Positions 48,524 to 55,417 of a stretch of 64,000 nt of DNA are shown here, one piece after another. The DNA is from Ferrovibrio sp. (GTDB lineage: Bacteria > Pseudomonadota > Alphaproteobacteria > Ferrovibrionales > Ferrovibrionaceae), in contig NZ_JAHBYG010000020.1 of NCBI RefSeq assembly GCF_019636075.1, positions 1-64,000 of the forward strand, read 5' to 3'. Under the pieces are notes generated by a model that worked only from the letters and a program-made list of their open reading frames with translations, made no database searches and was not told the DNA's origin. The number at the start of each line of letters is the position of its first letter. Position 1 is the first letter of the stretch. The translations under genes were made by a program, and so were the position numbers.

Positions 48524-49753
48524 TTACAGCCGACGGATGAAATCCAGGAACTCGCTGACCCGGCGCGCCAGTTCATCGGCCCGGCCATTCATCGCCGCAG
48601 CGGTTTCGCGCATGCCGGCGGCCATCTCGCCACTTTCGGCGGCCGCGCCCGATATGCTCTCGATATTCGCCGTCACGCTTTCGGTGCGGGTGGCTGCGGC
48701 CTGAATATTGTTTGAGATATCGGCCGTGGCACTGGCCTGCTCGCTGACCGCCTCGGTAATGCCCACCATACGCTCGTTCAACTCGGCCGCCTGGCCGCGT
48801 ATGGTGCCGATAGACGTGACCGTGCGATCGGAGGCCTGCTGGATGGCGCTGATCTGCTCGGCAATCGATTTCGCCGCCTCGGCGGTCTTCTGCGCAAGAT
48901 TGCGCACCTCCTGCGCCACCACGGCAAAGCCCTTGCCGGCCTCGCCGGCCCGCGCGGCTTCCACGCTGGCATTCAACGCCAGCAGGTTGGTTTGGAAAGC
49001 CACCGATTTGATGAATTCCACCACTTCATCGATGCGCTGATTGGCTTCCACCAGATCCTGCACGGCAGCCGCGGCGCGGTTCGCCTCGTCATTCACCGCC
49101 TTGCTGGCCATGTTGCCTTCGCGCAACTGGCGGCTGATCTCGGTAACGGTGGCGGCCATCTGCTCCGACGCGGCAGCCACCGCCTGGGTGTTCTGTGTGG
49201 CCTGCTGCGCCGCCTCGGCCACCGAATAGGATTGCGTGCCGGCCTGGGCCAGGCGCTCGGCCATGGTATCGGCATCGGCAGCCACTTCCTGGCTTGAGAC
49301 CGTCACCTGCTCCACGATGGCGGTAACGCCGGCTTCGAATTCATCGGCCAGCTTGGCGCGTTCGGCCTTGGCCTGCGCCGCCATGGCAACGCGCTGGGTT
49401 TCGATCTCGCCGGCCAGCTTGGCGGCCTCGCCGGCCTTGTCGCGCATCGCCAGGCGGGCGCGATTGATGATGCCCGCACCGCGCCGGAAATCGCCATGCA
49501 GGCCGCGTTCGAGAAACGGCCGATAGAACTTGCCCTCGGCCGCAAAATTGAGCGAAGCGCCGGATTCGCGGATATAGGCGTCGGTCTGGTCCAGCATATG
49601 GTTGAGCGCGCGCAACGGCGGCGCCAGGTCGCCATAGGGATCGGTATGCACCACACGGGCATTCAGATCGCCATGGGCAACGCGCTCGCAAACCTCGCCG
49701 ATCTCCTTCAATGCCTGCACATGCAGGCGCGCAGTGCGGCCGATCAAAAACAT
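48524..49753 (-). CDS. Soluble methyl-accepting chemotaxis protein
   Basis: A 409-residue receptor with no periplasmic domain. The N-terminus ([17 protein letters not shown]) is HAMP-like, and the C-terminal signalling hairpin is canonical ([21 protein letters not shown] and [20 protein letters not shown]). Only a short N-terminal hydrophobic stretch exists, so it is probably cytoplasmic. ATG 49753 is favoured by GAGGGG six bases upstream. It is the last gene after hemerythrin and PAS genes, 27 bases after the PAS stop, and likely reads oxygen or redox state through them. Confidence 0.93.
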
Positions 49754-49780
49754 CCTCATCCCCTCTGAAATCAATCAGGC

Positions 49781-50311
49781 CTAAGCCAGGCCGGCAATCT
49801 CGAAAACGAAGGCATCGTATTCCATGCCGATGCGCTGCAATTCCGCCTGCAACAAGGCAACGCCGGCCTGCATGCCCTGTTTGCGGTCGGCGTGGCGCGC
49901 TTCCTCAGCCAGCAAAGCGGCATAGATCGGCGCAATGGTTTCCACCGCCCGGCGCTCCGGCACCCGGCGGTTTGAATGATAGCCATCGATGCCGCCCTGG
50001 GGATCGAAGCTCGGCGTGACATGGGCGAACACCCAGTAGAAATCACCGTTCTTGGCCAGGTTTTTCACATAGGCGAAGATTTCCTGGCCGGTTTCTATCC
50101 GCTGCCAGAGCAGATGAAACACGCAGCGCGGCATATCCGGATGGCGCAGGATGCTATGCGGCTGGCCGATCAGTTCGGTTTCCGAATAGAGCCCCACCTT
50201 GCAGAACACATCATTGGCATAGGTGATGCGGCCGCGCGTATCGGTTTTGGAAACGATGATCTCGGTCGGCTCGAAGAAGCGCTCGTTCTGGGTTGGCTCC
50301 GGCCGCCGCAT
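49781..50311 (-). CDS. Aer-type PAS sensor protein
   Basis: A 176-residue protein with a PAS domain like that of the aerotaxis receptor Aer: ETEIIVSKT-like start (TEIIVSKTDTRGRITYAND), FCKVGLYSETELIGQPHSIL, RHPDMPRCVFHLLW and VKNLAKNGDFYWVFAHVTP. Such PAS domains usually bind FAD or heme. The C-terminal helix could dock to the MCP encoded next. ATG 50309-50311 overlaps the hemerythrin stop (TAATG), showing coupling. Aer is normally one polypeptide; here its parts are separate. Confidence 0.9.
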   Translation of the reverse strand: MRRPEPTQNERFFEPTEIIVSKTDTRGRITYANDVFCKVGLYSETELIGQPHSILRHPDMPRCVFHLLWQRIETGQEIFAYVKNLAKNGDFYWVFAHVTPSFDPQGGIDGYHSNRRVPERRAVETIAPIYAALLAEEARHADRKQGMQAGVALLQAELQRIGMEYDAFVFEIAGLA

Positions 50312-50724
50312 TACAATATCCCCCTGACATGCAGGAAAGTCTTGAATTGCAGATCGGCCCGCAGCACATCGTCGATCACCTGCGAGAAACAATCGTTGAT
50401 ATCATCGATATCGATATAGCCCTTGTCGATGCACTGGCTGCGCAGGCTCTGCAGCCGCGCCATGCTTTCGCGGTGATGCCCGATATGCCAATCCAGGCCA
50501 TGGTAGCGCAGGCCAGCCATGATCTCTTCCTCATGCAGGAAATGGCTGTGCATCTTGTCGGAAAGCCGGTCGAAGCATTGATCGGCAGGCAAGCGGCCCG
50601 CATTGCCGCGCAGCATATCGAGGTAATCGTTCAATTCGTCGAGCAACGATTCATGCTGCTCGTCCAAAGCGTTGTATTGTATCCGTGCCGCTTCCGGCAG
50701 CGCGAAATGCCGTGAATATCCCAT
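50311..50724 (-). CDS. Bacteriohemerythrin-like oxygen-binding protein
   Basis: A 137-residue four-helix di-iron protein. Ligand-type residues appear in order: DEQHESLLDEL, HSHFLHEEEIM and WHIGHHRESM, fitting the hemerythrin H...H-x3-E...H-x3-H pattern. ATG 50722-50724 (MGYSRHF) is used. First gene of a three-gene operon with PAS and MCP genes, preceded by a perfect FNR box. It probably senses or buffers oxygen for the receptor. Confidence 0.9.
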   Translation of the reverse strand: MGYSRHFALPEAARIQYNALDEQHESLLDELNDYLDMLRGNAGRLPADQCFDRLSDKMHSHFLHEEEIMAGLRYHGLDWHIGHHRESMARLQSLRSQCIDKGYIDIDDINDCFSQVIDDVLRADLQFKTFLHVRGIL

Positions 50725-50757
50725 AGCCAGCCGCACCCCAGTTGGTCCAAGCACGGC

Positions 50758-50799
50758 ATGCTATGGGGCGCCTCAAAGGCTGTAATTGATTTCGATCAA
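50758..50799 (-). promoter_or_regulatory. FNR/FixK box and promoter of the hemerythrin-PAS-MCP operon
   Basis: TTGAT (50786-50790), TTCG, ATCAA (50795-50799) is a perfect FNR-type palindrome. On the minus strand a -10-like TAGCAT lies at 50758-50763, which puts the box centre at about -41.5 relative to a start near 50751, the class II activator position. The ATG of the hemerythrin gene is 27 bases further on. This predicts induction at low oxygen. Confidence 0.75.
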
Positions 50800-50913
50800 C
50801 GCGCGTCATGGCTGATATTATTGCCCCACACTACACGCCACCCATAGTGTCGCTCAGTGCAATTTCAGCATGTATTTTTATATTGTTTTTACCAGAAAAA
50901 CTTCGGCGTACGC

Positions 50914-53259
50914 TTACACTGGCGTGCCACCGCCGTGGCTTTGCGCCGGCTTTGCCCAGCTGGAAGCCGGCAAAGCCATCACTGCGCCCAGAATCAGCCA
51001 CAGGATTCGCTGATAGAAAATTTCATGAAACTGGCTGAATACCGCGAAGGCCAGAAACAGAAAAATCAATCCCGCACGATGCGGCGCCGCCATACGGATC
51101 GGGCGCTGCATGGCATGCAGATACAGTTTCGCCGATATCCAGAGGATAATACCGAAACCGATCAGGCCGAATTCGGCCAGGATCCATAGCGGCGTGCTAT
51201 GCACCACCTGCTGGCGGCCCAGCCATTCCTCGCTGCGCACCAGAAACACGCCCAGGCCGGCGCCCCAGATCGGCGATTCAAGCCACAACTTGATGGCATG
51301 AAACCAGGTGGCCCAGCGCTCCACATTGCTTTCATCCCACGAAAGCAGGCTTTGTACGGCCAGGCCCCGGAAGGCATCGCCTGTACCGAAATCGATCTTC
51401 TGCACCAGCCAGAACAAGCCCCAGATCGATGCCGCCACCACAGCGCCCCGCAGCACCTTCTGCCAACCGACCATCCGCGCAGCCATACCCACCAGCAGCA
51501 CGATGCCGGCAGCCACCATGCCGGCGCGCGAGCCGGTCCACACCATACCCACCATGAGCACGCCGAGGCAGATGGTTTCAAAGCGCCCCCATTGCACCGG
51601 GTGGAACCAGGGCAGGCGCTGTAGTTTCAGCGCGTTTTCGCCAAACACCCGGGCATAAGCCAGCAGCAGCGCCATCACCGACAGCAACTGAAATACGAAG
51701 GCGTTGCGGTTGCCTGAATAAGCTTCGAAATTCAACGGCGGCGGCACATTCAGGCCAAAGCCGAAATGATAAGCCAGTCGGCTCAGCGCATGCCACAGCA
51801 CAACGCAACAGGCGACCAGAACCAAGGTCTGCATCAGGCGCCGCAATGCGATATTGCCCACAAAGGCCACCAGAAGATAACCCGCCGAAAGATACCCCAG
51901 CACCACCAGCCAGCCCAGCAGACGCCCGGCCAGCGCCCATTGCGTGATGCCGATCTTAAGCGCACCGATGGCAAATCCGAATAACAGCATCAGGCTCAGT
52001 GCCATCAGGATGGCGTTGAATCCCCGTATCCGCCAATGCGGCAATTGGCGCTGTATCACACAATGCAAAGCCACTGCCGCCAGCGACAGGATGGCGAACG
52101 GATCCGCCAGATTTATGTTCAATGGGCCGGAAGTGAGTTCCACATGGAGCTGGAAAAACACCGTCAGCGCCACCGCCATGCCGAGCAACCAGGCCGCTGC
52201 TTTTTCCAGATCCGGCACCGCGCTTGCCGTGAAGGCATCTGTGCTGCGGTTTGCGTCATCGCTACGCATTATGGCGGTGCGTTTGATTTTCTTACGGAAA
52301 GCCAATGGCGCGGCCAGCAGGATCACCAAGGTTGCGCTGGCGCCGATCAGTATCGACACAGTGATGGCATCGGCGGCCGCAATGCCCAATTGCTGCAGCA
52401 CGAACACCGCCGCCACCTCGCGCACGCCCCATCCGTTGACGGTGATCGGCAGGCTGGCGGCAAAGCTGATCAGCGCGGCAGCGGCAAACACACTGAGCGG
52501 CTGCGCATCGGGCTGCAAGGTGAGGATGGCAACCACGAAACTGCTGAGCACCAGGCATTGGCTGCAAAGGGTGAGCGCTGCGATCTGCAACACCTGGCCC
52601 AGATTTCGGCCGGTCAATACGCGCCGCAGAATCCGCGATTCGAAACGAGAGCGCCCGATCATCAGGCTGAGCAGCAAGCTGACCGCGATCAAGCCGGCGA
52701 TCTCGATCAGCGGAATGCCCCGGAAAAAAGCCGCGACCAGATGCTGGCCGAACAGATAACCCGCCGAAAAAATCGCCAGCAGACCGCTGATCACCACCAG
52801 CAGAGCGCGTTCGTAGGCCGCCAGGCTGGAATTCACCAATGGCGAGATGCCCACTTCGCGCAGCACGGCCTGCCGGCCCGCCACCTGGCCAAACAGCGAG
52901 AATACCAACAGGCCCGCCACATGACCGGCCAAAGCCGCGCGTGTGGCCACCGCCAACGGCACCCGATAGGAAAATTGCATCAGCACGCGCCAGAAGCGGA
53001 AACCCACCAGCCACAGATTGGCGCCCAGCAGCATCAGGATGGCAAACAGGCTGCCGAGCGGAAACGCGACCAGCCGCGCGAAAACATCCTCCAGCCCGGC
53101 CACCCAGATTATGAGCAGCAGCAAAAAGACGGCGAGGATGGACTTGGTTGTGCGCTTGCGAAACAGACGCAAAATACCAGCAAGGCTAGCGATACCCCGC
53201 TTTACCGGCGCAGACGATATTGCGCTGCGTAAACTCAGCACGACCCTGCCAATCAACAC
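50914..53259 (-). CDS. Fused UPF0104 (LPG synthase TM-like) / O-antigen ligase-like membrane protein
   Basis: A 781-residue polytopic protein made of two membrane modules. Residues about 40-330 resemble the UPF0104/LPG synthase transmembrane family (GRQAVLREVGISPL, LISFAASLPITVNGWGVRE). Residues about 345-775 resemble Wzy/WaaL O-antigen ligases: many helices, the GNRNAFVFQL region, VWTGSRAGM and a large loop with ESPIWGAGLGVFLV. The two are usually separate proteins. Its codon GC is lower than that of neighbours, and AT-rich DNA flanks both ends, so transfer is possible. Likely role: polymerising or ligating a surface glycan or lipid-linked product. Confidence 0.82.
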   Translation of the reverse strand: MLIGRVVLSLRSAISSAPVKRGIASLAGILRLFRKRTTKSILAVFLLLLIIWVAGLEDVFARLVAFPLGSLFAILMLLGANLWLVGFRFWRVLMQFSYRVPLAVATRAALAGHVAGLLVFSLFGQVAGRQAVLREVGISPLVNSSLAAYERALLVVISGLLAIFSAGYLFGQHLVAAFFRGIPLIEIAGLIAVSLLLSLMIGRSRFESRILRRVLTGRNLGQVLQIAALTLCSQCLVLSSFVVAILTLQPDAQPLSVFAAAALISFAASLPITVNGWGVREVAAVFVLQQLGIAAADAITVSILIGASATLVILLAAPLAFRKKIKRTAIMRSDDANRSTDAFTASAVPDLEKAAAWLLGMAVALTVFFQLHVELTSGPLNINLADPFAILSLAAVALHCVIQRQLPHWRIRGFNAILMALSLMLLFGFAIGALKIGITQWALAGRLLGWLVVLGYLSAGYLLVAFVGNIALRRLMQTLVLVACCVVLWHALSRLAYHFGFGLNVPPPLNFEAYSGNRNAFVFQLLSVMALLLAYARVFGENALKLQRLPWFHPVQWGRFETICLGVLMVGMVWTGSRAGMVAAGIVLLVGMAARMVGWQKVLRGAVVAASIWGLFWLVQKIDFGTGDAFRGLAVQSLLSWDESNVERWATWFHAIKLWLESPIWGAGLGVFLVRSEEWLGRQQVVHSTPLWILAEFGLIGFGIILWISAKLYLHAMQRPIRMAAPHRAGLIFLFLAFAVFSQFHEIFYQRILWLILGAVMALPASSWAKPAQSHGGGTPV

Positions 53260-53515
53260 AGCCTGGAGAATCCCTTGCTACCTGCTATCGGAAGCCCGGC
53301 TAGGAATAAGGCCCGCGAGCATTCAGCGCCTCTCTATATACTTTTTCCAATAAGTGTCGAACGAAAAGCGATTAAACAGTCACATTCGCACATTCAATTT
53401 AAAATATATTAATTCACTATATTGATCAATTATAAATTGCCGCCCCTCTCAGACAAAGAATGCCCCAACTGCAGGCTTGAATCCGGTCGGATTTTCGTAG
53501 ATCGCGCGCTGGAAT

Positions 53516-53591
53516 TGGTGGAGCCGAGGGGAATCGAACCCCTGACCTCCTCATTGCGAACGAGGCGCTCTCCCATCTGAGCTACGGCCCC
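53516..53591 (-). tRNA. tRNA-Ala (anticodon CGC)
   Basis: The minus strand folds as a full cloverleaf: acceptor GGGGCCG/CGGCTCC, D stem GCTC/GAGC, anticodon stem CCTCG/TGAGG with loop TTCGCAA (anticodon CGC, reading GCG), T arm AGGGG TTCGATT CCCCT and an encoded 3' ACCA. All helices pair with ordinary wobbles. Confidence 0.97.
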
Positions 53592-53692
53592 AGCGCTATT
53601 CATGCTGCCAGACGGCGGAAGCAGGTTCCGGGCCGGCGAGCGGCATGCTTGTAGCCAAGCCCGGGCGCTTTGTCCATCCCCCCATCCCGGCC

Positions 53693-53740
53693 GGGCTCGG
53701 GATTCTGGCCCTACCCGGGCTGGGCTTGGGATTCTGGCCC
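53693..53740. repeat. Imperfect 19-bp direct repeat between tRNA-Ala and yggT
   Basis: GGGCTCGGGATTCTGGCCC (53693-53711) recurs as GGGCTTGGGATTCTGGCCC (53722-53740) with one change, at a 29-base period. The 248-base gap between tRNA-Ala and the YggT gene holds nothing else I can identify. Confidence 0.7.
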
Positions 53741-53839
53741 CGCAGTTGCCTTTCACGGGCACAGCCGGTATGTCAAAGGACCGGTTGCGGCCACCATCCA
53801 TGCGCGGCAGGCCGGGGTTCATGGGCGAAAGGGTTGGCA

Positions 53840-54139
53840 ATGTTTGCGTTGATCTGGCTGATCGACACCCTGATCGGGCTGTATATCTGGCTGCTGATCG
53901 GCTCGGCCATCCTGAGCTGGCTGGTCGCCTTCAACGTGGTGAATACCAGCAACCGCTTCGTTTATATCATCGGCGATTTCCTCTACCGGGTGACCGAGCC
54001 GGCCCTGCGGCCGATCCGTCGCGTGCTGCCCAACCTGGGCGGACTGGACATCTCGCCGGTGCTGCTGATCCTGCTGCTGCTGTTCCTGCAAAATCTGCTG
54101 CTGCGCGACCTGGCGCCGGCTCTGCTGCGAGGCGCCTGA
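53840..54139 (+). CDS. YggT family membrane protein
   Basis: A 99-residue protein with two hydrophobic helices (WLIDTLIGLYIWLLIGSAIL and SPVLLILLLLFLQNLLL) joined by the conserved loop FLYRVTEPALRPIRRVLP with LGGLDISP, which defines YggT/YlmG. Members act in envelope or division-related processes. ATG 53840 follows AAGGG. The stop overlaps the probable start of the DUF167 gene, its usual partner. Confidence 0.92.
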   Translation: MFALIWLIDTLIGLYIWLLIGSAILSWLVAFNVVNTSNRFVYIIGDFLYRVTEPALRPIRRVLPNLGGLDISPVLLILLLLFLQNLLLRDLAPALLRGA

Positions 54140-54471
54140 TTTCACCGCCCTGGTTCCTGGCAGGCGACGGCCTGCGGCTGCGGGTGCGGCTCACCCCGAA
54201 AGCCGGCCGCGATGCCGTGGAAGGCATCAAGCCCACCGCCGATGGCGGTTGCGAACTGGCCGTGAAAGTGACCGCCGTGCCCGAGAAAGGCCGCGCCAAC
54301 GAGGCTTTGCTGCGATTGCTGGCCAAACAGCTGCATGTGGGCCCCAACCGCCTGAGCCTGGTGGCCGGCGCCACCGACCGCCACAAGCAGGTGGCATTTA
54401 CCGGTGCGCCGGAAGACTGGTTGCCCACCCTGCGCGCCTGGTTGGCGCCGCATGGCCTGGCCGAGACCTGA
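54139..54471 (+). CDS. DUF167 (YggU) family protein with a non-standard start
   Basis: About 110 residues. LRVRLTPKAGRDAVEGI, ELAVKVTAVPEKGRANEALL and LVAGATDRHKQVAF match DUF167/YggU throughout. No ATG, GTG or TTG exists between the yggT end and the conserved region; the best coupling position is ATT 54139 (overlapping the yggT TGA) or CTG 54136. GTG in LRVRL would cut the domain. Either a rare start codon or a base difference from ATG is implied. Confidence 0.82.
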   Translation: MSPPWFLAGDGLRLRVRLTPKAGRDAVEGIKPTADGGCELAVKVTAVPEKGRANEALLRLLAKQLHVGPNRLSLVAGATDRHKQVAFTGAPEDWLPTLRAWLAPHGLAET

Positions 54472-54526
54472 TCCGGGCCGAGACTGATCCGGGCCGGGCT
54501 GGCATGAGTGAAAGAGGAGCGAACCG

Positions 54527-55417
54527 ATGACCGCAACCCTGATCGAAGGCAAACCCATCGCGCTGGATATCCGCGCCGAGGTGGCCGCCAAGGTGGCGCT
54601 GTTCCAGGCCAAGCTGGGCCGCGCCCCGGGATTGACCGTGGTGTTGGTGGGCGAGGATCCGGCCAGCCAGGTTTATGTGCGCAACAAGGGCGTCCTCACC
54701 CGCGAAGCCGGCATGGTGTCGGATGAAATCAAGCTGCCGGCGGATACCGCGCAATCCGATCTGCTGGCCCTGCTGGGCAAATTGAATGCCGATCCGCTGG
54801 TGGATGGCATCCTGGTGCAGATGCCGTTGCCGCCGCATATCGACAGCCAGGCCGTGGTGGCCGCCATCGATCCGGCCAAGGATGTGGATGGCCTGCATCC
54901 GGTGAATGCCGGCTATCTGGCGCAAGGCATCGAAGCGCTGGTGCCTTGCACGCCGAAAGGCTGCATGATCATGCTGGAGCGCATCAAGGCCCAGGTGCCC
55001 AAGGCGGAGGTAGCGGGCGCCAGCGCGCTGGTGATCGGGCGTTCGATCCTGGTGGGCCGGCCGATGGGCGCATTGCTGCTCAGCGCCAATGCCACCGTCA
55101 CCATGGCGCATTCGCGCAGCCGCGACCTGCCCGCGCTTTGCGCCGAAGCCGATATCGTGGTGGCCGCCGTGGGCAAGCCGGAAATGGTGCGCGGCGAATG
55201 GCTGAAGCGCGGCGCCGTGGTGATCGATGTGGGCATCAACCGCATTGCGAAAGAAGATGGCAAGACCAAGCTGGTGGGCGATGTGCATTTCGCATCCGCC
55301 GTGGAAGTGGCCAGCGCCATCACCCCGGTGCCGGGCGGCGTGGGCCTGATGACCACCGCCTGCCTGCTGCAGAATACGCTGGATGCAGCCTGCGCCCGCG
55401 CCCGAATCAAACTTTAG
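54527..55417 (+). CDS. folD: Methylenetetrahydrofolate dehydrogenase / cyclohydrolase
   Basis: A 296-residue bifunctional enzyme interconverting 5,10-methylene- and 10-formyl-tetrahydrofolate with NADP. Signatures: [14 protein letters not shown] (catalytic Tyr and Lys), [27 protein letters not shown] and [17 protein letters not shown] precedes ATG 54527. Six bases separate it from the convergent XRE regulator. Confidence 0.97.

Follow-up and report, generated by a model that had tools for sequence, protein, structure and literature searches.

The operon described here, which lies in a 64-kb stretch of DNA that was analysed as a whole (the window), is probably an FNR-controlled cetBA operon in which a solo hemerythrin gene is located between the promoter and cetB, and in which the hemerythrin acts alongside the receptor, as a diiron protein for low-oxygen conditions. 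The bipartite CetB/CetA receptor type is already known and is widespread in Alphaproteobacteria, and what is special in this case is the hemerythrin gene between the FNR box and cetB.

Gene arrangement

Three tightly packed genes lie on the minus strand. The first encodes a hemerythrin of 137 aa, the second a PAS protein of the Aer type with 176 aa, and the third a soluble MCP with 411 aa. The original prediction had correctly recognized these three overlapping or closely spaced genes and their positions, and the domain matches agree with it. The features of the locus are:

50786-50799, no strand assigned: FNR box TTGATTTCGATCAA (TTGATCGAAATCAA on the coding strand) with perfect palindromic half-sites, the sole perfect site in the window
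50758-50763, minus strand: predicted -10-like hexamer TAGCAT, with class II FNR spacing and 4/6 matches to TATAAT
50311-50724 including the stop codon, minus strand: solo hemerythrin gene, based on Pfam, NCBIfam, the DcrH alignment and relatives
50320-50325, minus strand: Shine-Dalgarno-like AGGGGG within the hemerythrin gene, 8 nt 5' of the PAS ATG, from the sequence
49781-50311, minus strand: stand-alone Aer-type (CetB-like) PAS gene, 176 aa, predicted FAD binder, based on the 8DIK match and FAD-pocket residues
48524-49759 (start at 49759 or 49753), minus strand: soluble CetA-like MCP gene, 411 aa, based on MCPsignal, conserved positions and the lack of a TM-like stretch

The hemerythrin stop codon and the PAS start codon share one nucleotide at position 50311 (TAATG), and the MCP gene begins 21 nt after the PAS stop. 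The one-base overlap suggests coordinated amounts of hemerythrin and CetB, which would also fit a receptor subunit, and all three proteins are probably co-produced at low oxygen. A terminator-like hairpin (49778-49792, minus strand) spans the PAS stop codon ahead of the MCP gene and could make the amounts of CetB and CetA unequal; such matches are common in shuffled sequences (6 found versus 2.4 expected).

The FNR box and its promoter

The perfect pattern TTGAT-N4-ATCAA occurs once in the window and nine times in the 4.0-Mb genome, while the control pattern, read backwards, has no match in the entire 4.0 Mb. By simple proportion, about 3 in 10,000 promoters of 150 bp would be expected to contain a perfect box by chance. 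Some of the nine boxes sit within genes and are probably chance matches, and further perfect boxes precede ccoN, hemN, a P-type ATPase gene and an OmpW-like gene (names assigned from sequence). As is generally known, FNR-type regulators classically target ccoN, hemN and ompW. Two FNR-type regulators are encoded in the genome (C27:22997 and C5:32536). In both, the cysteines for the cluster (CX2CX7C and a further, distal Cys) are present, as is the E..SR recognition helix. The other HHE-domain protein of the genome (L001, L089; G000 contig C5, about 29.4-32.8 kb) adjoins an FNR-type regulator gene and lies some 2 kb from the ccoN box, an arrangement that suggests a low-oxygen respiration cluster.

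The first base of TAGCAT is the 30th base past the centre of the FNR box, which results in the exact -41.5 (class II) geometry, with a predicted transcription start near 50751 and a predicted leader of about 27 nt. The claim of the original prediction that a perfect FNR box is positioned at about -41.5 of a credible promoter is thereby borne out. A sigma-70 consensus scan reported no promoter at the FNR box, which is what a promoter that needs an activator and has a poor -35 region should give. The 300 nt directly 5' of the PAS gene contain no FNR box with up to two mismatches, and the PAS gene thus would rely on the promoter that precedes the hemerythrin gene. FNR sites may also repress, an example being the two aerotaxis receptors of R. 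capsulatus that are repressed by FnrL (PMC4634722), but a box at -41.5 is in the activating position.

The box is kept at related loci. PAS-MCP pairs whose PAS proteins are 61-71% identical to that of the window exist in most congeners, and when the best-matching PAS gene of each of seven congeners was considered, an FNR-like box was found in 7/7 cases, centred 71-102 nt before the PAS start. Four of these boxes are perfect, two have one mismatch and one has two mismatches, whereas dinucleotide shuffles predict 0.0005 perfect boxes, 0.02 with at most one mismatch and 0.28 with at most two, and the observed counts were reached in 0 of 2000 shuffles; as G004 and G007 are nearly identical at the locus, the seven congeners are not fully independent. 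Second PAS-MCP copies in some of the congeners lack a good box. At the other 57 PAS loci, two perfect boxes and eight with at most one mismatch were detected, compared with 0.02 and 0.5 expected. The mean -10 score of the same-genus promoters together with that of the window peaks at the class II offset, with the offset two bases earlier being a close second. Comparative support for FNR control of the PAS-MCP pair can therefore be considered strong, and the pair seems to form a separate unit under FNR control. As the genes that flank the pair differ among congeners, it is the PAS-MCP pair itself that has moved, and in the window the hemerythrin gene is placed between the FNR-type promoter and the PAS gene. 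These comparisons refer to sampled genomes. Their best loci were inspected along with flanking sequence of between about 1.5 and 5 kb, and some loci stop at contig edges. The postulated induction when oxygen drops is supported by the box kept at orthologous pairs, the two FNR-like regulators and the class II geometry. Text searches of the M. gryphiswaldense CetBA2 study (PMC12442639) and of a 2026 aerotaxis review (PMC13401364) gave no mention of FNR.

The PAS-MCP pair

The best PDB match of the PAS protein is the PAS domain of E. coli Aer (8DIK, E 1e-26), and Pfam and NCBIfam also confirm a PAS domain. FAD binding is predicted, with H53, R57, H58, F66, W70, N85, V99 and R117 present in the FAD pocket (reference residues His54, Asn55, Arg58, Phe67, Trp71, Asn86, Val100 and Arg117 of CetB2; window numbering from our alignment); Ser54 stands where CetB2 has Asn, and 59% of the relatives have Ser at this position. 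The MCP has a clear MCPsignal match (Pfam, E 3e-32) and a sub-threshold HAMP match. No TM-like stretch was found in it, the largest 19-residue mean hydropathy being 1.06, nor in five same-genus orthologues. Elliott et al. in 2009 reportedly described nine conserved residues of the CetA-type HAMP region. Using as a proxy for these a set of 21 positions that are conserved among 55 CetA-like partners, the N-terminal region of the MCP matches at 20 of the 21.

Relatives share with the window the layout in which the gene of a stand-alone Aer-type PAS protein adjoins that of an MCP without a sensory domain of its own, and the two-gene arrangement occurs at the majority of the alphaproteobacterial loci that were examined. 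As layout, FAD-pocket residues and the MCP N-terminal region agree, the pair is assigned to the wider family of CetB/CetA-type bipartite energy-taxis receptors, and not to the exact CetA type of C. jejuni. Among the closest described systems is CetB2/CetA2 of the alphaproteobacterium Magnetospirillum gryphiswaldense, an FAD-dependent two-protein receptor that drives an oxygen-repellent response (PMC12442639). There, too, a small FAD-binding PAS protein and a separate MCP are encoded in one operon with the PAS gene first, but no hemerythrin gene is reported in it, cetB2 and cetA2 overlap, and CetA2 is described as linked to the inner membrane, whereas the window MCP looks soluble (PMC12442639). 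In Campylobacter jejuni, the Aer domains are likewise divided between a PAS protein, CetB, and a HAMP-MCP, CetA, which unlike the window MCP has two transmembrane helices (PMC2628428). The membrane anchor of CetA is here treated as a variable trait. At two other MCP loci (L022 and L060, from G307 and G086), two CetB-like PAS genes lie in tandem.

The hemerythrin

A four-helix hemerythrin domain is present according to Pfam (Hemerythrin, E 1e-7), NCBIfam (TIGR02481 above cut-off) and the alignment with DcrH, the best PDB match. A single-sequence structure model also has DcrH as best match, with a mean pLDDT of 63.6, a low confidence that gives weak fold support. The canonical ligand pattern of O2-binding hemerythrins is H-HxxxE-HxxxH-HxxxxD, and six of the seven ligands are kept (H24, H61, E65, H80, H84, D124), while Asp119 replaces the His of HxxxxD, as aligned with DcrH and nine relatives. 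The protein has previously been taken as oxygen-binding, which with one ligand changed is not borne out; it may be called hemerythrin-like, and its O2 binding is at most putative. As the ligand is substituted and the additional gene is limited to this locus, the receptor is likewise no more than a putative direct sensor of O2. For single-domain hemerythrins, altered ligands have been described earlier, and they may affect oxygen binding (PMC4919030).

The Asp-for-His form was found in 17 solo and in no fused proteins (open frames of at least 230 residues) among the sampled hemerythrins, and 24 of 25 scorable fused hemerythrins have His at this position, the remaining one (L213, 257 residues) having Thr; as the sample had been collected with a profile enriched in the Asp form and consists of related proteins, these proportions are not population frequencies. 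On comparative grounds, D119 is regarded as a subfamily feature rather than as decay. Another solo hemerythrin with an altered ligand, Ala for the HxxxxD His, lies directly 3' of an MCP gene (L203:3867-6905, from G054), so that an altered hemerythrin of the solo kind adjoins an MCP in a second case.

The nearest relative of the window hemerythrin has about 37% identity, and none higher was found among relatives, 385 genomes of the class, genome contigs and plasmids. This relative (L196, G382, another family) is encoded by a solo gene that is preceded by a perfect FNR box and does not adjoin a chemotaxis gene; G382 has three PAS genes elsewhere, unlinked to this hemerythrin gene. The G382 gene lies just before yggT and folD (L196:7188-10111), and the window hemerythrin is about 3 kb away from its own yggT-folD in opposite orientation, with a tRNA-Ala (53516-53591) in between (window 50311-55417). 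This proximity may reflect a shared ancestral position or a coincidence.

Within the searches made, a hemerythrin between an FNR switch and receptor genes appears in this species alone. None of the 68 other stand-alone cetB-like PAS genes examined adjoins a hemerythrin gene, and no triad was found elsewhere, either with the hemerythrin query (relatives, 385 class genomes, genome contigs, plasmids) or with a ten-sequence hemerythrin alignment (order, class, phylum). Other hemerythrin loci that were read have no CetB-like neighbour, the few PAS matches being generic PAS proteins with 27-31% identity, and a single hemerythrin-PAS-MCP protein was not found.

Hemerythrins have been connected to chemotaxis or to low oxygen in other arrangements. 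DcrH of Desulfovibrio vulgaris also associates a hemerythrin with an MCP, but as a fusion that has the canonical ligands and no CetB partner, whereas the genes of the window are separate (PMC9388753). The 2026 aerotaxis review mentions hemerythrin only as an MCP-fused domain (PMC13401364). Mhr of Pseudomonas aeruginosa resembles the window protein in being a solo hemerythrin that is regulated by a member of the FNR family, Anr, but it is described in connection with cbb3 oxidases in microoxia instead of a chemoreceptor operon, and it binds O2 tightly, whereas O2 binding by the window protein is putative (as described for Mhr in PMC12403760). In C. jejuni, research on the hemerythrins HerA and HerB is separate from that on CetA/CetB and concerns their protection of Fe-S enzymes (PMC4257069). 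A further candidate for a soluble hemerythrin in chemotaxis, CheO of C. jejuni, was dropped because, according to its paper, it has no known sensory domain.

What could the hemerythrin do in a cetBA operon?

When oxygen falls, [4Fe-4S]-FNR would bind at -41.5 and switch on all three genes, as sequence and comparison suggest. CetB would read the redox or respiratory state through its FAD and signal via the soluble CetA to the chemotaxis kinase, as expected from family membership. The hemerythrin would be translated from the same message just before cetB and, which is the least certain step, is probably a low-oxygen diiron protein that handles O2, peroxide or NO rather than an oxygen-sensing module of the receptor. 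We favour such a captured, co-induced diiron protein beside the receptor because the linkage is seen in a single species, the nearest relative is a solo gene linked to FNR, and one ligand is changed.

The overlap of the hemerythrin and cetB genes nevertheless leaves room for a role as third subunit. The hemerythrin could dock on CetB or CetA and add a direct O2 (or peroxide or NO) input to the FAD redox input, as proposed for the fused hemerythrin domain in DcrH. The shared operon and the one-base stop/start overlap would agree with such a three-part receptor, and the existence of hemerythrin-MCP fusions (DcrH, L007 and many others) points to a natural functional pairing. We consider it a tentative and rather unlikely explanation, as the linkage is confined to this genome among all stand-alone PAS genes compared, nearly all scorable fused hemerythrins of the sample have His where Asp stands here, and the nearest hemerythrin relative is a solo protein unlinked to the cetBA pairs of its genome. 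That the Asp variant is a detachable third CetBA subunit, bringing FAD redox and diiron inputs together in one chemoreceptor that is supplied only at low oxygen via FNR, is unlikely as well.

It is improbable that the hemerythrin is a chance neighbour that landed 3' of the FNR promoter by a rearrangement, with a purely transcriptional link and little or no function left. Its occurrence in a single species and the substituted ligand would be compatible with this, but the frame is intact, six ligands are in place, D119 is shared by a subfamily, and the coupling to cetB is tight. The original prediction saw a single-protein oxygen receptor that appeared to have been separated into three modules, and of this it holds that the PAS domain is encoded apart from the MCP. 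The split is, however, the known CetB/CetA arrangement and not peculiar to this genome, and the hemerythrin is probably no module of Aer or CetBA but an extra gene seen at this locus only. A newly split Aer was rejected, as the two-gene form is widespread. Although the PAS domain is most similar to that of Aer, three broken-off modules are hardly credible, since the CetA-like N-terminal region has its own set of conserved residues and no protein combining all three parts turned up.

If alphaproteobacterial cetBA pairs are indeed FNR-controlled, the receptor would be built only once oxygen is already low. The Asp-for-His hemerythrin subfamily, solo only in our sample and accompanied by perfect FNR boxes in two genomes, offers a clear target for studying the function of an altered diiron site, and the operon of the window joins both topics.
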